From Nitrospirota bacterium (GTDB taxonomy: Bacteria; Nitrospirota; Leptospirillia; Leptospirillales; Leptospirillaceae): a stretch of 64,000 nucleotides of DNA. This document shows positions 15,101 through 64,000 of this stretch, piece after piece. The DNA lies in contig JAJYYA010000038.1 in NCBI GenBank assembly GCA_021801345.1, positions 1 through 64,000 of the forward strand. Direction: 5' to 3'. Positions within the stretch are counted from its first letter, which is position 1. Every line of letters starts with the position of its first letter. Under the pieces are notes generated by a model. It made no database searches. It was not told where the DNA came from and was given only the letters and a program-made list of their open reading frames with translations. The translations under genes were made by a program, and so were the position numbers.

Positions 15101-16890
15101 GCCCTTTTTGGAACATGCTCTCGATCTCTCCGGTGCGCGACGAGAGCGGGAGGCTCGTCGAGTTTGTGGGAGTCCAGCGGGACGTCAGCGAGGTCGTGGC
15201 GATCTCGCGAAGGCTTGAGCACGAATCTCTTCACGACCGTCTGACCGGCCTTCCCAACAGGAGGTCTCTCGACCATGCCTTCGAGATGGCCTTTGGACGG
15301 TCAATGCGTTACCGATGGCCGCTTGCGGTCGTGATGATCGATCTCGACGGCTTCAAGCCGGTCAACGACTCCTTTGGACATGAGGTCGGGGACCGTCTTC
15401 TCGTCGCGATGGGAGAGCGCCTGGTCGGGGTGCTCCGGAAGACCGACTTTCTCGCGCGCCTCGGCGGAGACGAGTTCGTTCTCCTGGTCGAAAACTATGC
15501 TGGGACGACTGAGCTTCTGGATGTTCTCCGACGGGTCGAGGAGGCGGCGACCGGGGAGTTCCGACTTCCGGGAGGGGAGACGCTACGGGTCGGGATTTCG
15601 ATGGGGGTGGCGACGACCTCCGGGGGAAACCCCGAGAGCCAGGAAAGCCCCGACGCGCTCCTGCGGCTGGCCGACTTGGCTCTGTACGAGAGCAAGGCCC
15701 ACAAGGCTGACCGTGAGGTTCCCTGGGTGCTCTACGGGGAGGGGGTGAGGGTCCGCAAGAACGAGGCGCAGAGTCTTCTCGCGGAAGGCGCTCTCGAAGT
15801 CTCCTACCAGCCGATCCTGAGCGTGGCGACGCAGACGATCGTGGGGGTCGAGGCTCTGGCCAGACTCAGAAGGGGCGACGGGAGCCTTCTTCTTCCGGGA
15901 GAGTTTCTTGGGGAGATGTCCTCGGACGACCTCTTTGAGCTCTCCCGGCAAGTGATCGAACGGGTCCTAGATGAGATGCCCAGGCTCTCTGAAGCCGCTC
16001 CCGAGCTCTGGGTCTCGGTCAACATCGACCCCGGGTCGGTCTCGGAGAAGGGCGTTGGTATCTTGAGAGGGATGCTCGAGGGGGCGAAGATGTCACCGTC
16101 TCGGCTCTTCCTCGAAATTCTGGAGGCCCGGGAGTTCGGCGAGACGAAGGACGCGCTCGGGCTCCTTTATCGGCTGAAAGCTCTGGGCATCCGGCTCGCC
16201 ATGGACGATGTCGGAAGCGCCTACTCCTCGCTTTTGCGGCTCAAGGAGCTCCCCGTCGACAAGGTGAAGCTCGACCAGGGGTTCATCCGCACGATCGACC
16301 AGAATCCCCGGGACCTTCATTTTGTGGGGGCGGTCCAGGAACTCGTGAGCCGGATGGGGTTGGCCCTCGTCGTGGAGGGGGTGGAGTCGGAGAGCGTCCG
16401 GGATGCCATGGAGGCCATGGGGATCGACCTTCTCCAGGGATACGCCATCTCCGTTCCCGTCCCCCTCGAAGGCATCCGGAGCTTTTTGCAAGGCTTTCCC
16501 CGGGAGCCTCACCCGTACCCCCGGACCCTCTTCGGGCTTTATGCCATTGCGTTGTCGCTCCATGGCCGGATGAGCCGCAGCGTCAGGCAGAGCCCCTCCC
16601 TCTTCGACCCAAGGCTCCTCGCGGATGTTTCGAACTGCCCGGTGGAGGAGGCGATCGAGAGGGTGGGGATCGGGCGTGATTCGGAGATCGAGAGCCGTCA
16701 CGAGGAGTATCACAGGCAGATGGCCGCCTTCGTCCGCTCCATTAAACACTACGGGCGCGTCACGGAGGTGGTTGACCGCGCGTTTGCACTGGCGGGGGAG
16801 GCGATGCTTGACGCCATCCTCGCGGAGTACCGGAAGAAAAGCGGAGCCTTTCCGTCCGGGACCGGTGGGGGCTCCCGACTCGGGGACTAG
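12103..16890 (+). CDS. Membrane PAS-GAF-PAS-GAF-LOV-like-GGDEF-EAL c-di-GMP protein
   Basis: 1595 residues. Order: TM1 (about 40-58), periplasmic sensor region, TM2 (277-296), PAS (313-427), GAF (450-608), PAS (622-742), GAF (755-910), LOV-like PAS (918-1030), GGDEF (1043-1205), EAL (1225-1455) and a C-terminal helical domain (about 1475-1570). GGDEF (1121-1125) and the inhibitory RKTD site (1112-1115) are intact. EAL residues Glu1250, the DD pair in LAMDDVGSAYSS, VVEGVE and LLQGYA are conserved, so both synthesis and hydrolysis of c-di-GMP are possible. The third PAS has NCRILQ (Cys962), NYKKDGSPFWN and VGVQRDV, the LOV flavin-site pattern. The C-terminus has His1487, Cys1512, His1533 and His1537 in CZB-like spacing. 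The two GAF domains look like an internal duplication. It lies 9 bases after pheT. Confidence 0.93.
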   Translation: MASREAPRSGQGDSPEHSERQGSGTPPLREVARSYFLARWVDVLVVGTLLVAGAALASFELTRFKEAKAQVAEEARRTGLEVAGRFSDTLSRRFLDLGFIAASFTGRSSTMPGRMFRQEVRVYLALHPALVDFEVRKGEAGPILWSTRAGGGPPLRPGGTRTQADIPLLSNPTLLLGSPYASSRIGAWLLPLGILIPSSPLYVRTHVRLDTLLPAPVQSPFRVRMGDSRKRPAPSASLGQGSSSLRVSVPSYPFFFEVSWPEKTSFLRYRRSADFRWILEFGGLLLLSLMGGGIRILSRRQGKILQRFAELSALDFAVFEEAGALGLVIGEDGRILRMNRSAREFTGLPPEALPATPYYWERFIPEEEVPEVHALFERLKTSASSGEYENHWVRPSGERRLFRWILTVIGEAGDRTVVKMGLDITERERLAGLLREKNDRLEELLSYNILRGKLAEAVAAASGEGALLESFCALSMEVPGVVLAWVGMPDEVTGVFSVLAASGATGYLEGVRISAREEDPAGRGVSGRAWRAGQSAFNDSFDKSPSMQPWRERAKSFGIAASATVPIRKGGRLYALLTVYLDHEEVFSLELRSILEAIGASLSSGLDRIGLMEREREARALSEALISNAAAGVDLVRYPERVVVEANEAFLRIFGFSSKDEIVGQSVRRLYFDDEGWALVGSIASRALAEGSAVARNVSFRRRSDGKKMWADVAAHKVPGETHDLLVWTVVDVTDNHRLELEVERTSRFRNLLAQVGRRMGEMREEEGLLQELCEMSVKYGEVDLAWAGVPDKDGRVHFVGGAGETGYLDGLSITIDERSPAGDGPAGRTWRSREPSFNIDLALVLAGRSNADRAAGFGFRSLAILPILRGGSPWGLLTFYMKEEEGFDASLQALLREMARMISGGLDRLDEERRLRILSSAIASVGEGVAISDPEGRVLFVNGAFTAITGYSFDEMLENNCRILQGEETDPGTVEAIRAAIRSGSSFQGQIKNYKKDGSPFWNMLSISPVRDESGRLVEFVGVQRDVSEVVAISRRLEHESLHDRLTGLPNRRSLDHAFEMAFGRSMRYRWPLAVVMIDLDGFKPVNDSFGHEVGDRLLVAMGERLVGVLRKTDFLARLGGDEFVLLVENYAGTTELLDVLRRVEEAATGEFRLPGGETLRVGISMGVATTSGGNPESQESPDALLRLADLALYESKAHKADREVPWVLYGEGVRVRKNEAQSLLAEGALEVSYQPILSVATQTIVGVEALARLRRGDGSLLLPGEFLGEMSSDDLFELSRQVIERVLDEMPRLSEAAPELWVSVNIDPGSVSEKGVGILRGMLEGAKMSPSRLFLEILEAREFGETKDALGLLYRLKALGIRLAMDDVGSAYSSLLRLKELPVDKVKLDQGFIRTIDQNPRDLHFVGAVQELVSRMGLALVVEGVESESVRDAMEAMGIDLLQGYAISVPVPLEGIRSFLQGFPREPHPYPRTLFGLYAIALSLHGRMSRSVRQSPSLFDPRLLADVSNCPVEEAIERVGIGRDSEIESRHEEYHRQMAAFVRSIKHYGRVTEVVDRAFALAGEAMLDAILAEYRKKSGAFPSGTGGGSRLGD

Positions 16891-49605: not shown

Positions 49606-52600
49606 ATGGATGCGAAAGAACCGAAAGCCGACCCTTCCTTCCCCTGTCCTCCCTCCTTTTTCTACGAAGAGTCCGATCAGAGTCTCTTTATTCTCGATGC
49701 GACAGGGATTCTCGTCTCTGCAAACCCGTCCTTTCTTCGCGAGACCGGGTATGCGCCGGAGGAGATTGTCGGCACGTCCTTTCGCCTGTGGTGCGAGCCC
49801 GGCTCGGGGAGACTTCCGGCCTGCGGAGAAAAAAGCGTTTGGGAAGGTACGTGTAAAAGGGCCGACGGGTCGACCTTATATTCGGAAATCGTTCTCTCCG
49901 GCCGATTGGCCGGAGAGAGGGAAATCGTGGTCGGCCTTCTTCTCGACCGTTCGGGGAGAAAGAAACAGGAAGAGGAGGCCGTTCGTCTCGTCACGCTCAA
50001 CCGTCTGCTTGCCACATCGGCGGTCTACATGTCTGAAGAGCACTCCGAGGACGAGCTGTTTTCTGCCCTGTGTGCCCATCTCGAAAAAATCGGGGGATTT
50101 CCTCTCGTTTGGGCCGGACGTCCTGATCGGGAGGGGACCTTCACTCCGCTGGCCTTCTCCGGACTCTGGGAGAAAATCCGTCCGCTCCGCTTCTCGTCAA
50201 GGGAGGATCGTCCGGGAGGGCGCTCTCTTGCCGGACGGGTCTTCCGCACGGGGGCGCCCGTTTTTGTCGCCGATCTCCCGTCTTACGCAAGGGAATCGGG
50301 AGAAGCGGAATGGATCGAGGCGATCGCCGCTTCGGGCTTTCGCACGGGATCTTTTCTCCCTGTTTTTCGGGGAGGACAGCCTTATGCAGTCGTCTGTCTT
50401 TATTCCTTTTCCCCCGCATCCCTCTGCCCGCTTCTTGAAGAGATTCTCCTGACTCTTGTTCAGACCCTCTCGCGGGTCCTCGACAGGATCGACATGCGGT
50501 CCCGTGAGCGCGAAGGGGATCTTCTGAGAACGATACTTTTCGAGCATTCCCCTTCCGGGATCGGAATGGTGCAGGGAGAGCGCATCGTATACGCCAACCC
50601 TGTCCTTGCAGAGATTTTCGGCTATCCCGATCCCGGCGCGATGAAAGGTCTCCCGCTTCGGACTCTTTGGGAGAGCCCGGGGGAGGATCGCAGGATCGAA
50701 GAGGCCCTGTCCGGGACAAATCTTTCCCGACGGAGTCATTTTGTGCCGGAGATCCACGGGAAGCGTCTGGACGGGAGCCTTCTTGTTCTCGACGTCTCCG
50801 TTGCCTCGGTCAGACTCGATCGCGAGTTGACGGTCGTCCTGACGGCAAACGATGTCACCGAGCGTGTCAGGCAGTCTCGTAAAAGGGCGCGGATCCTTCA
50901 TCTGGGGGGCGTGCTTTTCGACCTTCGCCGGGAGATAGAGCAGGCGGGAGAGGAGGGAACCCTACTCCAGTCCCTGTGCAACAGTCTCGTTTGGGAGGGG
51001 GGATTTGATACGGCGGCCTTCTGGTCTCGGGGGATGGAACGCTTTCTCTGTCTTTCCGAGGTCAGGGTCGACCGGGTCGACGGCGAGGGGGAATACCATG
51101 TGCCCTCTCTGGAGGAAAAGATTCCCGAGGGCCTGCTCGAGGCGATTCGAAGAAGCTGCGAGGAAGGGGTCCCCTTTTTTGGAAAGGCAGAGCCGGCATC
51201 AAAGGGGGGCGCTCCAGAGGGAGGGGGATCCGGGGAGGATGCGTGTGGGGGAGGGCTCTTCCTGGAGTCTGTGTCATCGGCCCGAATGGAAGCGGAGCTG
51301 GCGCTTCTTCCTGTGCCGAGAGGAGGGCGGGCCTGGGCTGTGCTCGTTCTGACCTCCCCGGGAGCGGACACCTGGGAGCCGGAGGTGCGGGAGATCCTCT
51401 CCGGAATGATCGAAAGCCTCTCGCTGGCGCTCGACCGGAGAGACCTCCGGCGCTCGGAACGCGAGATCGGATCTCTCCAGAGAGCCATCCTGGAACATTC
51501 GCAGTCGGGCATCATTATGGCTGCCGGACGGGAGATCACCTATGTCAATCCCCGCCTCGTGAAAATTTTTGGTTACGATGGACCCGAAGAGCTTCTGGGG
51601 AAAAATTCCCGGATTCTCTACCGCACGCAGGAGGAGTACGAGCGGGTTGGGGCGCTTCTTTTTCCAAAGATTTACGAAGGGATACCGGTCTTCGTCCAGG
51701 ATATCGCCGCCATCAGAAAGGATGGATCCCCCCTGTGGATAGATCTCTACGATGTCATGGCGGATGTGGAGGGAAGACCGACCGTCATTGCCACCTTGAC
51801 CGACGTGACCGATCGCCACAATGAGGAGCTCCGGCTGACGATGGTCGCCCGCTTCAGGGGGCTTCTGGCCGAGGTCAGAAAGATTGCGGCCGTCGGAGAA
51901 GAGTCGGACATGCTTCGCGATGTCCTTTCGCATGTGGAGAAGGAAGGAGGATTCGACTTCGTGGGACTCCTTCGTCCGGACGGACGGGGAGGATTTTCTT
52001 GCGAGGAGGGGGAATGGCCTTCCGAACTCCTTGACACACTTGCCCCGGAAAAGTTGTCCTCCTTTTTGCAGTCCGTCGAAGGGGGCCGTGCCTGGTGGGG
52101 GCCGGAGGAGGCCAAAGGGGAGAAGACTTCCCCGTCCTTTGCCGCCCTCCCCCTCCTGCGGAGAGGACGCGTCTGGGGGATTCTTTTTCTCTCGAAAAAG
52201 GATCCGACGGTCATTTCTCCCGATATCCGGGAGATTTTGGAGGAGATCGGGAGAACTCTCTCCTACCAGCTCGATCGCCGGGACGCCGAGGCCCGGGAGA
52301 GAGAGCTTTCATCCCTGACTTCGGCGATCATGGGAAATGCCCGTGTGGGCTTCGTCCTGATCGATCTCTCGAGCCGCACGCTCCTGCACGTCAACGGCCA
52401 CCATCTCGAAGAGCTCGGGTATGGTGCAGACTTTCCGATTGAGGGAAAGCCGGCCGGTTTGTTGCTGGCCGACGAGGAGGAGGTTCGCCACGTAAACGAG
52501 GCGGTGGCCCTGGCGCAAAAAGAGGGGCGGGAATGGGTCAGTCTTGTCAACGTCCGGCTTCGCCATCGGGAGGGGGCGGTCATTCTTTTCGACCTCTTTG

Positions 52601-54192
52601 GCCATTGGCTCGAGCATGGGGGATCTTCGCGCTTTCTCTGGACTGCCGTCAACGCCACAGAGAGAAACCGTCTTCAGATGCGCATCGAGCATGAGGCCAC
52701 CCACGACAGCCTCACGGGGCTTCCCAACAGGCGGGCGCTCGAACATCATCTCGGGATGGCGGTCGCCCGAGCCAGACGGTCGGGAGGAACCCTTATGCTG
52801 GGGCTTCTCGACCTCGACGACTTCAAGCCGGTGAACGATCTTTATGGTCATGAGGCGGGGGATTGTCTTCTTCGGGAGTTCTCCGGACGGGCTCGGAGAC
52901 TCTTGCGCGAATCGGACTTTCTCTGCCGCCTTGGAGGAGACGAGTTCGTTGTGGTTTTGGAGATTTTCGAGAAAGATTCCGAAAGAATGTGGCGCGAAGT
53001 CTGTGTTGCGATGGACCGCCTCCATCAGGCGGTGGAAAGTCCCTTCGAGGTCATGCCTGGGCGTTTTGCCCGGGTATGGATGACGATGGGAGTGGCCCTT
53101 ACCCCCGAAGGGGGAGAGAGCCCGGACGCCCTTCTTCGAGAGGCCGATCATGTTTTGTATGCACTCAAGGCGGAAAAAGGAAGGCGAAGCCGCTGGTGGG
53201 GGAGGGGAAAGGATATCGGAGAGGGGACGATCGCCAAAAACAGTACGGAAGAGAGATTCTCAGAGTTCGGGGGACCTGCCGGGGAGCTTCTCGAACGAAT
53301 GGCGCCCCTTGTTAGGGAGGTAACCCGCCTCTTTGTCGAGAGGTTTTACGAGGATCTCGGCTTGGAGCCCGCGGCCCGGAGAATCCTCGATCGGCTCGAC
53401 AGCGCAGACATGGAATCTCTCAAGCTCTCCCAGGGGGGCCATCTCTCCTTTCTGCTGTCGCCCGGGACGACGGCGGAGGAGATTCGGAAAAGGGCAGGGC
53501 ACCTCGGGGAGATCCACGCGCTCTATGGGGTCGACCTCTCCGTTTTGCTCTTTGCCAAGACGCTGTATGGAAAGATCTTTACCTCGGCGCTGGGGGAGTC
53601 TCATCTTTCCGGGCTCGACCGGACCCGTCTCCAGATGATTCTCGAGGAGAGGCTTGGTCTTGATATCCGCCACCAGGCCGAGGCGGGGGCGCGCATTCAG
53701 AGGGCTTACAGCGAGATTCTCTTGCGCCCTGTCTCTCGTTTTGAGTCCGCACCTCTTGTCGGAGAGGAGGAGCTTCGCGCCCTGGCGGCTCTCCCGGGAA
53801 TGACCGGGGCGGCCCTTGTCGTTTTCGGACGGACGGGGAAGGGGACGATTAATGCTTCTCCGGACTCCTTTGAGGGAGTCGTCCGAATGTGTGGGGATCT
53901 GCTTGAGACGGCCATGGAGCGCCGCTCTCTCCAGATTGGGAAGTGTCCTGGAGGTGAAGAAGGGAAAGCGACACCCCTCTCTCTTGCCGCGCTTCCCATT
54001 TTGGGTCCGGGGCTCAGCCGGCCAGCGGCTCGCGTCCAGCCCCTTCCTGCAACTCTTGTGCTGGGTGGGGTCTATCCTCGACAGTTCAAGTCGGACTGGC
54101 TCCGGCACTTCCTGCAGGGTCTCGCATGGCGCTGGGGGGTCCTCCTCGAAGGTGCTCCGGAGGGGTCGTTTTCTTTCGATGGGGACGGATAG
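49606..54192 (+). CDS. PAS/GAF-GGDEF-globin c-di-GMP protein
   Basis: 1528 residues with TATGGAGG before the ATG and no transmembrane helix. Order: PAS (15-125), GAF (128-300), PAS (305-425), GAF (430-620), PAS (625-745), GAF (750-900), PAS (905-1020), GGDEF (1030-1200), globin-like (1222-1368), GAF-like tail (1385-1515). GGDEF at 1110-1114 with inhibitory RESD at 1101-1104, so synthesis of c-di-GMP is expected. The globin segment has GHLGEIHALYGV with His1304 in the place of the haem-binding His of globin-coupled sensors (IHAxxGV). Globin sensors are usually N-terminal; here the globin follows the cyclase. No EAL domain. Confidence 0.92.
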   Translation: MDAKEPKADPSFPCPPSFFYEESDQSLFILDATGILVSANPSFLRETGYAPEEIVGTSFRLWCEPGSGRLPACGEKSVWEGTCKRADGSTLYSEIVLSGRLAGEREIVVGLLLDRSGRKKQEEEAVRLVTLNRLLATSAVYMSEEHSEDELFSALCAHLEKIGGFPLVWAGRPDREGTFTPLAFSGLWEKIRPLRFSSREDRPGGRSLAGRVFRTGAPVFVADLPSYARESGEAEWIEAIAASGFRTGSFLPVFRGGQPYAVVCLYSFSPASLCPLLEEILLTLVQTLSRVLDRIDMRSREREGDLLRTILFEHSPSGIGMVQGERIVYANPVLAEIFGYPDPGAMKGLPLRTLWESPGEDRRIEEALSGTNLSRRSHFVPEIHGKRLDGSLLVLDVSVASVRLDRELTVVLTANDVTERVRQSRKRARILHLGGVLFDLRREIEQAGEEGTLLQSLCNSLVWEGGFDTAAFWSRGMERFLCLSEVRVDRVDGEGEYHVPSLEEKIPEGLLEAIRRSCEEGVPFFGKAEPASKGGAPEGGGSGEDACGGGLFLESVSSARMEAELALLPVPRGGRAWAVLVLTSPGADTWEPEVREILSGMIESLSLALDRRDLRRSEREIGSLQRAILEHSQSGIIMAAGREITYVNPRLVKIFGYDGPEELLGKNSRILYRTQEEYERVGALLFPKIYEGIPVFVQDIAAIRKDGSPLWIDLYDVMADVEGRPTVIATLTDVTDRHNEELRLTMVARFRGLLAEVRKIAAVGEESDMLRDVLSHVEKEGGFDFVGLLRPDGRGGFSCEEGEWPSELLDTLAPEKLSSFLQSVEGGRAWWGPEEAKGEKTSPSFAALPLLRRGRVWGILFLSKKDPTVISPDIREILEEIGRTLSYQLDRRDAEARERELSSLTSAIMGNARVGFVLIDLSSRTLLHVNGHHLEELGYGADFPIEGKPAGLLLADEEEVRHVNEAVALAQKEGREWVSLVNVRLRHREGAVILFDLFGHWLEHGGSSRFLWTAVNATERNRLQMRIEHEATHDSLTGLPNRRALEHHLGMAVARARRSGGTLMLGLLDLDDFKPVNDLYGHEAGDCLLREFSGRARRLLRESDFLCRLGGDEFVVVLEIFEKDSERMWREVCVAMDRLHQAVESPFEVMPGRFARVWMTMGVALTPEGGESPDALLREADHVLYALKAEKGRRSRWWGRGKDIGEGTIAKNSTEERFSEFGGPAGELLERMAPLVREVTRLFVERFYEDLGLEPAARRILDRLDSADMESLKLSQGGHLSFLLSPGTTAEEIRKRAGHLGEIHALYGVDLSVLLFAKTLYGKIFTSALGESHLSGLDRTRLQMILEERLGLDIRHQAEAGARIQRAYSEILLRPVSRFESAPLVGEEELRALAALPGMTGAALVVFGRTGKGTINASPDSFEGVVRMCGDLLETAMERRSLQIGKCPGGEEGKATPLSLAALPILGPGLSRPAARVQPLPATLVLGGVYPRQFKSDWLRHFLQGLAWRWGVLLEGAPEGSFSFDGDG

Positions 54193-54425: not shown

Positions 54426-56729
54426 GTGCCTGAAAAAAAGAGACGACGACGGAGACGGTCCGGTGGGTCCGGGGCGTCCGGGAGTGAACCTGCGGTGACG
54501 GAGGCTCCTCCAGACTCTCCCTTGGCATGGCGAGAACGCATCTTGAAGGCGTTGGAGGATTCTTCCGAAAATATTCTGTCGCTCGAAACCCTTCTCAGGC
54601 GTCTTCTCTCGAAAAAAGACCGGAACCATCGACCCGATGCCGAGGCGGCACTCGACCTTCTGATCGCCTCCCGCGAGGTGGTGCGTCTTCCCGACACGCG
54701 TCTGGCTCTCCCCGCACGACTCCCCTCTCTGACGGGGCGCCTTGATGCCAACAGGGACGGATACGGGTTTGTGATCGATCCCGAAGGCAAGAAGGATGTC
54801 TTTGTGCCGGCCCATGCGCTCTCGGGAGCGATCGATGGCGACACTGTCGTGTGCCATGTGGCGGGGGAGGATGCCAAGGGCCGTCGCGAGGGGGTCGTCC
54901 TGCAGGTTCTGGCCCATGGTCGGACAACCTTCCCCGGATTGCTTCTTTCGACGTCCGAGGGATGGTTCGTCAAGCCGAAGGATGCCCGGATCCGCACCCT
55001 GTTCCGGGTGGAGGATCCCCCGTCGGATCTAGTCGCCGACAACATCGTGATCCTGGCGGTGACCGTCTATCCTTCCGGACCTTCCGGGCCTTCCGGGCCT
55101 TCCGGGCCCTCCGGTTCGGGAGAAGGATCGGGCCCTTCGGGCCGGATCCTTTCCGTTCTCGGAGCAGACGGGGATCCGGCGATCGATACCGATCTTGTCA
55201 TTGCCTCTTTCGGGTTCCCCACCGCCTTCCCCTCAGAGGTGGAGGCCGAGGCCCATCTTCGGGCAGAGACCGTTCCCATTCTCCCCGACGCCGAACGGCG
55301 GGATTTCCGGGCACTTGAGATTGTGACCATCGATGGAGATAGCGCAAAAGACTTCGACGATGCGATCTCTTTCGAGGAGGAGGCCGACGGGTCGGTGACG
55401 CTCGGGATTCATATCGCCGACGTCTCCGCCTATGTTCTTCCCGGTTCGGCCCTTGACCGGGAGGGATTCTCCCGGGCGACGAGCGTCTATTTCCCCGATC
55501 GGGTGCTCCCCATGTTCCCCGAGGTCCTCTCGAACGGGGTCCTCTCTTTAAACCCCGATACGGACAGGCTGGCCCGCTCCGTGACGGCACGGATCGACTC
55601 CTCCGGGAAGATCCTCTCCTGGACCCTCGACCGTTCCGTGATCCAAAGCCGCAAGCGCATGACCTACTCGGAGGTCCACCGGGCCCTGACCGGCGACCCT
55701 TCGGAAGAGTACCGTTCCTTCGTTCCCCGCCTCCTCGGGATGTGGCGGGTGGCGTCTCTTCTCAGAAAAAGAAGAATGGCCCGGGGAAGTCTCGACTTCG
55801 ACCTTCCCGAACCGGAGATCGTCCTCGATCTTCGCGGCGAGCCGGTCGATATCCTGCGATCTCCCCGCTACCTTTCCCACCAGCTGATCGAGGAGTTCAT
55901 GCTCCTTGCGAACACCCTCGTGGCGACCCGTCTCAAGGAGCGGCTCGGCATGGCCCTGTTCCGGGCCCACGAGACCCCTTCTCCGGAGCGGATCGAGAAT
56001 CTTTACTCCTTCCTGGCCTCACTGGGACTTCCCTTTACGAGGCCGGAGACGGTGACTCCGAAGGATCTCTCCCGGATCCTCGAGGAGACCAAGGGCTCTC
56101 CCCTCGAACATCCGGTTCACTACTCGGTTCTCAGGTCCCTGAAGCAGGCCCGGTACGATCCGGCTCCCTTGGGCCACTTCGGGCTCGCCTTTCCCGACTA
56201 TACTCATTTTACCTCGCCCATCCGGCGCTACCCGGATCTGATCGTCCACCGCCTCCTCGATCTTGCCTCGCCGGGGGCCATGGAAAAGCTCCTTCCGGCC
56301 AGTCTCTCGGCGGTGGCCCAGCACTGTTCCGAGCGGGAGAGAAAGTCGACCGAGGCCGAGCGTATGGCCATCGACTACAAGAAGGTCCGATTCATCTCGC
56401 GCCATCTCGGAGAAAGCTTCGATGGACGGATTACGGGCGTGGCCTCGTTCGGTCTCTTTGTCGAGCTCACTCCGTTTTTTGTGGAGGGACTGATTCCGAT
56501 TCATCAACTGGGCAAGGACTATTACGAATACAGGGACGACAGGCACCAGATCAAGGGAGCCCGGAGCGGGCGGACATTCTCTGTGGGGGATGCCGTTCGT
56601 GTAACGGTGGCCAAGGTGGACTTCCAGAGGCTGAGGTGCGACTTTGTCCTCGAGGAGGAGGCCGGGAATCTTTCGGAAGAGAGTCGGTCCCCTTCAGGTC
56701 GGCGTCGTTCCGGCCGAAGAGGGAGATAG
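54426..56729 (+). CDS. rnr: Ribonuclease R
   Basis: 767 residues, GTG start with AGAGGG upstream. A basic N-terminus (PEKKRRRRRRSGG) precedes a winged-helix region, cold-shock domains, the RNB catalytic domain (DGDSAKDFDDAISFE with the acidic metal ligands; SRATSVYFPDRVLPMFPEVLSN; HFTSPIRRYPDLIVHRLL) and an S1 domain (FDGRITGVASFGLFVEL). Processive 3'-5' exoribonuclease for structured RNA. A low-complexity GPSG repeat (about residues 216-240) coded by a 9-base tandem repeat interrupts the region before the RNB domain. The basic end RRRSGRRGR is typical. Confidence 0.96.
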   Translation: MPEKKRRRRRRSGGSGASGSEPAVTEAPPDSPLAWRERILKALEDSSENILSLETLLRRLLSKKDRNHRPDAEAALDLLIASREVVRLPDTRLALPARLPSLTGRLDANRDGYGFVIDPEGKKDVFVPAHALSGAIDGDTVVCHVAGEDAKGRREGVVLQVLAHGRTTFPGLLLSTSEGWFVKPKDARIRTLFRVEDPPSDLVADNIVILAVTVYPSGPSGPSGPSGPSGSGEGSGPSGRILSVLGADGDPAIDTDLVIASFGFPTAFPSEVEAEAHLRAETVPILPDAERRDFRALEIVTIDGDSAKDFDDAISFEEEADGSVTLGIHIADVSAYVLPGSALDREGFSRATSVYFPDRVLPMFPEVLSNGVLSLNPDTDRLARSVTARIDSSGKILSWTLDRSVIQSRKRMTYSEVHRALTGDPSEEYRSFVPRLLGMWRVASLLRKRRMARGSLDFDLPEPEIVLDLRGEPVDILRSPRYLSHQLIEEFMLLANTLVATRLKERLGMALFRAHETPSPERIENLYSFLASLGLPFTRPETVTPKDLSRILEETKGSPLEHPVHYSVLRSLKQARYDPAPLGHFGLAFPDYTHFTSPIRRYPDLIVHRLLDLASPGAMEKLLPASLSAVAQHCSERERKSTEAERMAIDYKKVRFISRHLGESFDGRITGVASFGLFVELTPFFVEGLIPIHQLGKDYYEYRDDRHQIKGARSGRTFSVGDAVRVTVAKVDFQRLRCDFVLEEEAGNLSEESRSPSGRRRSGRRGR
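55071..55115 (+). repeat. 9-base tandem repeat inside rnr
   Basis: Five units of CCTTCCGGG-type sequence (55071, 55080, 55089, 55098, 55107), first and last with base changes. In frame, encoding Pro-Ser-Gly repeats in the RNase R linker. Unit number can vary without frameshift. Confidence 0.85.
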
Positions 56730-60114: not shown

Positions 60115-60190
60115 TGGTGGTCCCAACGGGGTTCGAACCCGTGTTTCCGGCGTGAGAGGCCAGCGTCCTAGGCCACTAGACGATGGGACC
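60115..60190 (-). tRNA. tRNA-Glu (anticodon CTC)
   Basis: 76 bases on the minus strand. Acceptor stem GGTCCCA/TGGGACC, T-arm with GGTTCGAACC, anticodon stem CTGGC/GCCGG with loop CTCTCAC giving anticodon CTC, and an encoded 3' CCA. Compares well with bacterial tRNA-Glu. Confidence 0.95.
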
Positions 60191-60328: not shown

Positions 60329-63300
60329 TTAAAGGTCCTGGGGGGACTCCTTCCGGATCTTTTCGGCGATCCATGATTTGAGATTTTCCCGGAAGAGGGG
60401 GCGGCTTTCGGGGTCGAGATGGATCCCCTCATGCCAGAGAAGCGGCAGGGATCCGGGGCCGGCCCGGGCTGTCAGATAGGCGTGAAGGGGGCAATCGGCC
60501 GGCTCTCCTAGCGGGCGGGTTCCACGGGAGTCGTTCTTCCACAGATAGGCCAGGGCTCCCGAGGCGCTCTTGATGACAGGCTCTCCTGCCGGAATCCGAA
60601 AACGGTCGATAAAGGCAGGGATCTCGTCGGAAGGCATGGGACGGGCCAGGGCAAAGCCTTGTCCGTAGCGGGCTCCGAGGATTCTGGCCACATCGACGAG
60701 GTCGGGGTGGCCCAACCCTTCGATGACGACATGGTGGTTGAAGTCCCGTCCAAGTTCGACGATGGCGCCGACCAGGGCGATGGTCTCGAGGGGAGAGGAG
60801 AAGAAGCGGAAGAGAAGCCCCTGGTCCACCTTGATCGTGTCGAAGGGGACGGAGGCCAGTCTTTCGAGGGTGCTGTACCCCGAGCCCAGGTCGTCGATGG
60901 AAAGCTTGACCCCCTCGGCGAGGATGCGGCGGATTCCCTCCGTCTGGGTCCGGGGATCCATGTACTGGTTTTCGAGGAGCTCGAGGGTCAGGCGGGAGGG
61001 GGCGATCCCATGGCGTTCGAGGGGCTCCCGGACCCACCGCGAACAGCGGTCGTCGGCCAGAACATGGGGAGGGAGGTTGAGAGAGAGCGTCAGAAAGAGC
61101 CCCTGGCTGTCCCAGCGCGAAAGTTTCTCGGCGGCCATTTCAAGACCCTCCCGGAAGAGCCAGATCAGGTCGCTCTCGCCCAGAAGGGGAAGGAAGGCTC
61201 CCGGAGAGAGGACCTTTCCGTCCGGGCGTTCGAGCCGTGCCAGCGCCTCGACGCGGGTGGCCGTCCCGCTTTCGAAGTCGACCACCGGCTGAAAGTAAAT
61301 CCTGAGGCCCCCCTCGAGAAGATTTCGCCTGAGCTGGCGCGAGGACTCCTCTTCAAGTGTCCGTGAGGAGATGAGGGAACGACTACAAAGTTCGTTCCAG
61401 CGCCGGGAGAGATTCTTGATGAATCGTCCCGCCCAGGCCGAGTCGAACTGGTTCGGCCAGGCGCCGGCCAGAAACAGAATGGCCGAGGGCCGGCCTGTCG
61501 TATCGTTGACGGGCAAAAAGAGGGAGGAGCACCATTTCTCCGGATGAGTCCGGTCTTTTGGCGACGGGTTCTCGCAGTGCAGGAAGATCGGGCGATTTTC
61601 GTTCCAGGCGGAGGTCAGTGCCCTGAGAAGTTGGGGGTCCTCCCAGGGGAAGGCGATGTGCGAGGCGGCTTCGGCGACAAAGCCACCCTGGCGGTCGGGG
61701 CGCAGAAAGAGCACCCCCGTCATGCCGGGGAGCTCTTCGAGTGCGGAGATCTCCCGGGAGAGAATGTCGGGCCAGGGAGTCGCCGAAGAGGCGGCGGAGG
61801 TGGTCAGGCAGTCCGAATAGCGCTCTACTGTCTTCCCGTAGGCTTCGACCTGCCGGCGGATGTCCTCGTCGAGGCGGCTCTCGAAGAGGAGAAGGAGGCG
61901 GAGCCGGTCGGAGACCGAGAGAGGGGCCTTCGCGATCTTTTCGAAAAAGATAGTGCTGTAGAGGGTCTTGGCCGAGAGGATCAGCGGCACCGGAACGCCT
62001 ACCAGGGCGTGGATTGCCCCGAGGTTGGAGGAGACCTCGAGAATCTCTTCGTTTCTGGTGTCGGGGGAGAGAAGAAGTCGAAGATGGCGCGTCTGGGAGT
62101 CGACGAGTCTGTCCCTTCTTTCAGGGGAGAGGCGCTCGAGAATCGTGCGCGCCTGGGGATCGGCGGCCAGACGGTCGTAGAAGATCCCGGCAAACTGCCG
62201 GGTGACCTCGTCGAAAAGGGGCTGAAAGCGCTCGAGAAGGGAGAGGGCCTGGGGACCGTAAATATCGAATGTCTCCTCTCTTTCCGGAGCGACCGGCTCT
62301 TCCCGGGCGATGGTCCACCAGCGGTTTCGTGCGCCTTTTTCCTCCTTCGACCGATACATCGCAAGGTCGGCCTTCCGAAGGAGGACGTCCGGCGTCTCGC
62401 CGTCGGCGGGAAAGAGTGCGACCCCCATCGACATGCCGATGGTCGCCTGTCGGTCGGGGGCGATCCCGAAAGGAGCCTCCACCGCCTGGTGCAGGCGGGC
62501 GATGGCGGTGCCGAGGGCGGACTCGAGGGCCGCCGGGCTCTCTCCGTCGAGGGACTCGAAGACGACGACAAACTCGTCTCCCGCCAGCCGCCCGAAGAAG
62601 TCGGTCTCCCGGGTGAGGGCCCGGCCCCGGGCGGCGAATTCCCGGAGAAGCCGGTCCCCGCTCTCGTGTCCCCAGGTGTCGTTGACCGGCTTGAAGTCGT
62701 CGAGGTCGATGAAGCCTACGGCCAGGGGGCGGCCGGTCCGCTTTGCCCGGGCCAGTGCCGTGTTCAAATGGATGTCCAGGGCGTTCCGGTTCGGAAGTCC
62801 CGTCAGTTTGTCGTGAAGAGACGCGCGCTCGAACCGCTTCGAGGCTTCGACGATCTCCGTCACGTCCCGGTGGATGCCGACGAACTCCCGGATCGCGTTC
62901 GAGCCGTCGACGATGGGGTTGATGGTGAGAAGGTCCCAGAAGGTCGAGCCGTCCTTTTTGTAGAACAGAAGTGTGTTCTGGAAGGGCGTCCCGGTCCGGA
63001 AGGTCTCCTCGATGCGGCCGAGCGCCGCCGGGTCGGTCTCGGGTCCGGCGAGAAGATAGGGCGAGACCCCCACGAGTTCTTCCCGGGTCCTTCCCAGGAG
63101 GCGTTCCATTGCGGCGTTGGCGTAAAGGATCGTCATGTCCGTGCTGACGACGAGGACCCCCTCCCCGACCGAGGCGAGGGCGCTGACGAGCCGTTTCTGT
63201 TCGGCCATGCGGTCGAGCCGGTCGAGCCCTTCGGAGAGGCTTCGCCCCAGCTCGCGAAGGATTTGCGAGAGATCCTCGTCAAAGGCATCGGTCTGCCGGT

Positions 63301-64000
63301 CGAGAAAGGAGAGGATCGCAAAGGGCGCTCCTCCTCTCGTCACCGGAACCGAGGCGGTCGTGCGTATTCCGTTCTCTATGACAGTCTTCTCCCAGGATGA
63401 GGGAATTTCCTTTTCTCCGGGATCGGACAGGGTGTTGATATGGATCTCTCCGCTTCTCCAGGCCTCTCCCGCCGCACCCCGGCCTTCGGGGCGGGAGGGG
63501 TCGACCGAAAGCCTCAACCCGTCGATCCAGGAGGTCTGCCCGGAGCTGTGGCCGATCGAAAACCACCCCTCGGGATCGGGGCGTCCGATCCAGGCGATCT
63601 CGGCGATCCCCTTCTCCGTCGTCAGTCGGCAGACGCCGTCGAGAAGCTCGTTTTCGTCTTTGGCCGAGGCGGCAAGGCGTCGAAACTCGGCCAGAAGACG
63701 GGTGAACAGGGAGAGTCGGGCGAGCCGCCTCTCCTGGTTGTGGCGGACGGTGACGTCGGTGATGGTGAAGATCACCGTCCGGTCGTCTCCCAGATCGAGA
63801 GTCGAACCGTAAATATCGACCCAGAGGAGGGATCCGTCCTTTTTTCTGGCGCGGACGTCGGGAACAAAAACGCCCTCGGTCTCCAGAATCCTGGGATAGA
63901 AGAGTGCGCCCACCCGCAGATACTCCTCTTGCGAATCATACAAATAACTGGCGTCGCGTCCCGTCATCTCCCGGGCATCGTATCCGAAGAGGCGCACAAG
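60329..64000 (-). CDS. PAS-GAF-PAS-GGDEF-globin-GAF-EAL c-di-GMP protein (5' end outside window)
   Basis: At least 1222 residues inside the window; the frame runs off the right edge inside a PAS domain, so the N-terminus is missing (residue numbers count from 63997). Order: partial PAS (1-95), GAF (105-262), LOV-like PAS (265-385), GGDEF (390-555) with motif AGDEF (472-476) and inhibitory RETD (463-466), globin-like domain (575-720; SNLGAIHALVGV, proximal His663), GAF-like (735-865), EAL (885-1125) and a C-terminal helical domain. EAL catalytic set is intact (Glu917, ELLENQ, SIDDLGSGYSTLE, IKVDQG, VIEGLG, YGQGFAL). The PAS lacks the LOV Cys and Gln. The end has Cys1169, His1189 and His1193 (CPLHAYL...WHEGIH), CZB-like. 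Confidence 0.92.
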   Translation of the reverse strand, partial: LVRLFGYDAREMTGRDASYLYDSQEEYLRVGALFYPRILETEGVFVPDVRARKKDGSLLWVDIYGSTLDLGDDRTVIFTITDVTVRHNQERRLARLSLFTRLLAEFRRLAASAKDENELLDGVCRLTTEKGIAEIAWIGRPDPEGWFSIGHSSGQTSWIDGLRLSVDPSRPEGRGAAGEAWRSGEIHINTLSDPGEKEIPSSWEKTVIENGIRTTASVPVTRGGAPFAILSFLDRQTDAFDEDLSQILRELGRSLSEGLDRLDRMAEQKRLVSALASVGEGVLVVSTDMTILYANAAMERLLGRTREELVGVSPYLLAGPETDPAALGRIEETFRTGTPFQNTLLFYKKDGSTFWDLLTINPIVDGSNAIREFVGIHRDVTEIVEASKRFERASLHDKLTGLPNRNALDIHLNTALARAKRTGRPLAVGFIDLDDFKPVNDTWGHESGDRLLREFAARGRALTRETDFFGRLAGDEFVVVFESLDGESPAALESALGTAIARLHQAVEAPFGIAPDRQATIGMSMGVALFPADGETPDVLLRKADLAMYRSKEEKGARNRWWTIAREEPVAPEREETFDIYGPQALSLLERFQPLFDEVTRQFAGIFYDRLAADPQARTILERLSPERRDRLVDSQTRHLRLLLSPDTRNEEILEVSSNLGAIHALVGVPVPLILSAKTLYSTIFFEKIAKAPLSVSDRLRLLLLFESRLDEDIRRQVEAYGKTVERYSDCLTTSAASSATPWPDILSREISALEELPGMTGVLFLRPDRQGGFVAEAASHIAFPWEDPQLLRALTSAWNENRPIFLHCENPSPKDRTHPEKWCSSLFLPVNDTTGRPSAILFLAGAWPNQFDSAWAGRFIKNLSRRWNELCSRSLISSRTLEEESSRQLRRNLLEGGLRIYFQPVVDFESGTATRVEALARLERPDGKVLSPGAFLPLLGESDLIWLFREGLEMAAEKLSRWDSQGLFLTLSLNLPPHVLADDRCSRWVREPLERHGIAPSRLTLELLENQYMDPRTQTEGIRRILAEGVKLSIDDLGSGYSTLERLASVPFDTIKVDQGLLFRFFSSPLETIALVGAIVELGRDFNHHVVIEGLGHPDLVDVARILGARYGQGFALARPMPSDEIPAFIDRFRIPAGEPVIKSASGALAYLWKNDSRGTRPLGEPADCPLHAYLTARAGPGSLPLLWHEGIHLDPESRPLFRENLKSWIAEKIRKESPQDL

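Follow-up and report, generated by a model that had tools for sequence, protein, structure and literature searches.

The locus and its domain order

The window, by which we mean the whole stretch of 64,000 nucleotides analysed, ends within the gene of interest, which lies on the minus strand (60329..64000); the full open reading frame runs on to contig position 65866 and encodes 1845 aa. Pfam analysis of the full protein, together with its predicted model, gives the order (PAS/GAF)n–GGDEF–globin–GAF-like–EAL–tail. This bears out an earlier sequence-only reading, which had found GGDEF, globin, GAF-like and EAL domains in one chain and had put the globin at 61830-62280, in agreement with the profile match at 61817-62269. 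All of the domains described below are on the minus strand. PAS and GAF stretches are repeated N-terminal to the GGDEF domain, and include a GAF domain (Pfam GAF_2, aa 736-881, 63224..63661) and, as the last PAS domain before GGDEF, a PAS_9 domain (aa 902-1004, 62855..63163). The GGDEF domain itself (aa 1017-1178, 62333..62818) has an AGDEF active-site motif and an RxxD inhibitory site, as identified by Pfam and a motif census. It is followed by the globin sensor domain (aa 1200-1350, 61817..62269), whose Pfam Protoglobin core spans aa 1207-1333 (61856-62248).

The interval between the globin and the EAL domain (61355..61816) is occupied by a GAF-like domain. It has no Pfam match in this protein alone, but Pfam does match a GAF domain in the corresponding position of family members (E = 1.6e-8 and 2.4e-11), and the predicted model has a GAF-like alpha/beta order. 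The EAL domain (aa 1510-1743, 60638..61339; Pfam) contains the catalytic residues E, N, E, D, D, K, E and Q. When the residues needed for dual diguanylate cyclase (DGC) and phosphodiesterase (PDE) activity were checked, the GGDEF domain was found to have both AGDEF and RxxD, and the EAL domain was complete except for the second Glu of EGxE. Both catalytic sites thus look largely intact, as judged from these motifs.

The protein ends in a C-terminal tail (60332..60595), in which the family alignment reveals an invariant Cys1792, His1812 and His1816. This pattern of one Cys and two His (C-x19-H-x3-H here) is present in all 37 of the members compared, from two phyla. To the eye the tail looks metal-binding and similar to a CZB domain. 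However, Pfam searches of single tails and of 16 members, and a profile search against the PDB, gave no match to CZB, and this assignment was rejected. Immediately downstream of the gene there is a tRNA-Glu (CTC) at 60115-60190 on the minus strand.

The window contains a paralogue on the plus strand (49606..54192, 1528 aa), with the order (PAS/GAF)n–GGDEF–globin–GAF-like and no EAL domain. Its globin is at 53257..53709, with His1304 at 53515-53517. The window's other GGDEF–EAL protein (15229-16458, in a frame of 1598 aa) has no globin. It is worth adding that a nine-base tandem repeat of about five copies (55071-55114) encodes Gly-Pro-Ser repeats within an RNase R-like gene (54426-56729).

Structure and residues of the inserted globin

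Matches to Pfam Protoglobin (PF11563) score 36.7 and 31.6 bits, above the curated cut-off of 25 bits. A globin profile was built from eight paralogous domains of the same genome and compared with solved structures. The best match was the Vibrio vulnificus RsbR stressosome haem sensor (VvRsbR, 7o0i; E = 4e-9), with further matches to the Geobacter globin-coupled sensor (GsGCS), HemAT, Tlr1989 and DosC. Aligned to HemAT, the domain places its FY motif at Tyr70 and its conserved His at His123 of that protein. Tyr1230 (62177..62179) is thereby aligned to the distal B10 Tyr of HemAT, and His1286 (62009..62011) is the predicted proximal haem ligand; the latter is the residue that the sequence-only reading had called His663, counting from the window edge.

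An AlphaFold model of the globin, based on six alignment rows, has a pLDDT of 90.4 and a pTM of 0.83. The best 25 matches of this model to solved structures in Foldseek are all globin-coupled sensors, with TM scores of 0.60-0.72. The sequence-only reading had stated that its proposal would fall if structure prediction gave a helical linker rather than a globin. The sequence identity to solved globins, which is only about 16-21% for the Foldseek matches, might be taken in favour of such a linker, but the Pfam, profile, AlphaFold and Foldseek results all contradict it. Given that the best 25 structure matches are without exception globin-coupled sensors, we rejected the linker on the strength of the model and these matches, and regard it as scarcely credible. 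The inserted domain is therefore confirmed as a predicted globin of the globin-coupled-sensor type. A search of a viral structure library gave no significant match.

Across the family, the proximal His is kept in 58 of the 59 inserted globins, and is absent from three of the family members surveyed. The B10 residue of the inserted globins is Tyr in 41 and Phe in 10, with Phe or Met replacing Tyr in 14. The E-helix distal residue is variable (Arg, Ser, Leu, Ala, Lys or Gly), a variation that may correspond to differing ligand affinities. In the GGDEF domains, a GGDEF, SGDEF or AGDEF motif is found in 60/61 and RxxD likewise in 60/61, and the EAL catalytic residues are almost invariant in the alignment. 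The exception concerns the gene described here: in all four of its orthologues the second Glu of EGxE is changed to Gly (EGxG), a change not found in other family members, and because of this the phosphodiesterase activity of this orthologue group may be weaker.

The globin also separates the two enzymes widely. In the 44 loci of this type, the gap from GGDEF to EAL is 323–358 residues, with a median of 344 aa, while the genome's other GGDEF–EAL proteins, such as those on contigs C24 and C47, have about 20 residues between the domains. Direct joining of GGDEF to EAL (by about 20 aa, an arrangement that is usual and not strictly defining) is absent from the globin type.

A family in two phyla

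The sequence-only reading had called for a search for this architecture across genomes. Such a search found 44 GGDEF–globin–(GAF)–EAL loci in the window's taxonomic family and in one class of Pseudomonadota, together with 15 loci of GGDEF–globin–GAF, nine of globin–(GAF)–EAL and five in the conventional order. The globin profile matches all 14 genomes of the genus. Outside the family, a sample of 296 genomes of the phylum gave no match above 43.3 bits, and in the matches inspected there the globin is N-terminal, as is usual. Among named genomes, scanned with a narrower alignment that yielded four loci, the Proteobacteria MAG WY3.bin158 has all three layouts, and the GGDEF–globin–GAF–EAL layout is present in ten of the 369 genomes of its class. 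Two of these ten each carry it on one contig of about 2.4 Mb, which rules out mis-binning as the source of the Pseudomonadota loci. The layout is that of a family in two phyla, and is not unique to this protein. A search of a plasmid collection gave no match.

Of 72 globins placed in a maximum-likelihood tree, 63 cluster together (100/95); the cluster holds all of the inserted globins, all of those from globin–GAF–EAL proteins, and one conventional protein (L170). Three changes in the position of the globin relative to GGDEF suffice to explain the tree. Natural deletions exist on both sides of the globin: globin–GAF–EAL proteins without GGDEF, which are present in both taxonomic groups, and GGDEF–globin–GAF proteins without EAL.

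The two globin proteins of the window are indeed paralogues, as had been suggested from the sequence: their orthologue groups are sisters (98/93), and the two proteins are 44% identical across the shared region. In a second genome, too, the orthologues of the pair have opposite orientations, with about 10 kb between them. Since the two groups are sisters, it is most likely that the paralogue's group lost its EAL domain after the duplication. EAL has also been lost in other groups.

The loss of EAL appears to leave a mark on the domains that remain. The median ratio of GAF to globin divergence is 2.28 without EAL (six pairs) and 1.10 with EAL (thirteen pairs; p = 0.0007), this being a post hoc comparison of pairs that we chose ourselves, with high and partly saturated synonymous divergence. 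The dN/dS of the GAF is 0.26-0.62 without EAL, against 0.14-0.32 with it. The globin is slightly relaxed without EAL (p = 0.036 on the same post hoc pairs), while the EAL-less loci keep the proximal His in 15/15 and the B10 Tyr in 14/15, with a globin dN/dS of 0.10-0.30, indicating purifying selection. Because the GAF diverges faster without EAL while the haem-ligating His of the globin is kept, we read the GAF as serving mainly the EAL domain, and the globin as presumably mattering also without EAL, for the GGDEF domain.

Proposed signalling between the haem domain and the two enzymes

Proteins with both GGDEF and EAL domains raise the question of how a sensor chooses between synthesis and breakdown of c-di-GMP. 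For the present protein, we consider it on balance probable that it is a globin-coupled c-di-GMP enzyme, whose haem domain influences EAL by way of the GAF-like domain, and probably GGDEF as well. The haem domain would bind haem together with a diatomic gas, O2 being the most likely and NO a possible one; alternatively, it possibly reads redox state. The state of the ligand would shift the globin helices, and the long last globin helix (model residues 309-346) would relay this shift first to the GAF-like domain and from there to EAL. In the other direction, the short link of about 17 residues to the preceding GGDEF domain could let the globin influence cyclase activity, adding to the input of the N-terminal PAS/GAF sensors. 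The model of the whole module has a pTM of only 0.45, and therefore the relative positions of the domains cannot be read from it.

Coupling to EAL is suggested by the globin–GAF–EAL proteins that have no GGDEF and by the faster divergence of the GAF without EAL, and coupling to GGDEF by the retention of the haem residues in EAL-less proteins. The same observations bear on a rival proposal, that the globin and GAF regulate EAL only, in the manner of an ordinary N-terminal sensor fused behind a GGDEF domain that takes its input solely from the preceding PAS/GAF domains. The stand-alone globin–GAF–EAL proteins, the position of the PAS/GAF domains ahead of GGDEF and the relaxation of the GAF upon EAL loss would all fit this, but 15 EAL-less loci have retained the globin and its haem residues under purifying selection, and we judge the proposal rather unlikely. 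It is distinctly improbable that the globin has left gas sensing behind and serves in dimerisation or partner docking, with the haem structural or absent; the wide variation of the E-helix distal residue and the three members without a proximal His point this way, whereas the His is present in 58/59 inserted and 15/15 EAL-less globins. A more ambitious version of the coupling to both enzymes would make the globin a central haem hub, driving GGDEF backward through the short link and EAL forward through the GAF, with the diversified distal pockets of the paralogues forming a set of switches in each cell, tuned to different gases or affinities; this we offer only tentatively, as a possibility. 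We found no tested precedent for a backward effect of a globin on GGDEF in a search of open-licence papers.

Characterised globin sensors are described as N-terminal to their output (PMC8846402, PMC5549716). The present proteins join a globin to a signalling output domain in one chain (Pfam, alignment), which is what makes a globin-coupled sensor; their globin is N-terminal to EAL and C-terminal to GGDEF (59 loci), N-terminal placement being usual and not strictly defining. Globin control of a diguanylate cyclase is already known from DosC and BpeGReg. The cyclases DosC/DgcO, BpeGReg and AvGReg share the globin-sensor fold, proximal His and FY motif with this protein, but differ in having the globin N-terminal to GGDEF and no EAL. 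The RsbR globin of V. vulnificus, although the best profile match, has a different output and no c-di-GMP domains. In DcpG from Paenibacillus dendritiformis the globin is N-terminal. DcpG is described as having globin, GGDEF and EAL in one chain, as here, and its ligand controls opposite activities, the O2 form being active as a PDE and the NO form as a DGC (PMC10882959). The present protein differs from DcpG in that its globin–GAF unit is placed after GGDEF and before EAL, and in that GGDEF has several PAS/GAF domains ahead of it. Given the DcpG precedent, and given that both catalytic sites look largely intact, it is plausible that the haem domain switches between synthesis and hydrolysis, as the sequence-only reading had proposed.

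Acidithiobacillus, an acidophile, has c-di-GMP proteins that combine protoglobin, GAF, GGDEF and EAL, listed as Protoglobin-GGDEF-EAL-CZB and GCS-GAF-GGDEF-EAL with the globin first, an order that may not be the true one; some have a C-terminal zinc-binding (CZB) domain, which was not detected in the tails of the present family (PMC6416229). A search of open-licence papers found no protein described with its globin between the GGDEF and EAL domains, and the present family would be a variant of the globin-coupled sensors, set apart by the position of the globin and by its globin–GAF unit. The CDD entry 'GS_PAS-GGDEF-EAL' (cd14760) may be an earlier record of a related architecture.

The family supplies natural deletion variants around one sensor, without GGDEF or without EAL, so that a comparison of these would put the direction of signalling to the test. 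Across its 2.6 Mb, assembled in 73 contigs, the genome gives 20 EAL and 29 GGDEF matches. It has nine Protoglobin matches (Pfam), one in a conventional globin–PAS–kinase-like protein and eight in members of the inserted-type family, these being five GGDEF–globin–GAF–EAL proteins, one globin–GAF–EAL protein and two GGDEF–globin–GAF proteins, including the paralogue in the window. So many copies per genome suggest that sensing of gas or redox state may be a principal signal by which these bacteria control their biofilms. One of the five GGDEF–globin–GAF–EAL proteins (G000:C69:154946-155421) has its GGDEF split across two frames, by a frameshift in either the gene or the assembly. The conventional globin–PAS–histidine-kinase-like gene (G000:C31:102074-105791) has a GGDEF–EAL gene closely downstream, and in this genome the pair may give a globin another way to act on c-di-GMP.
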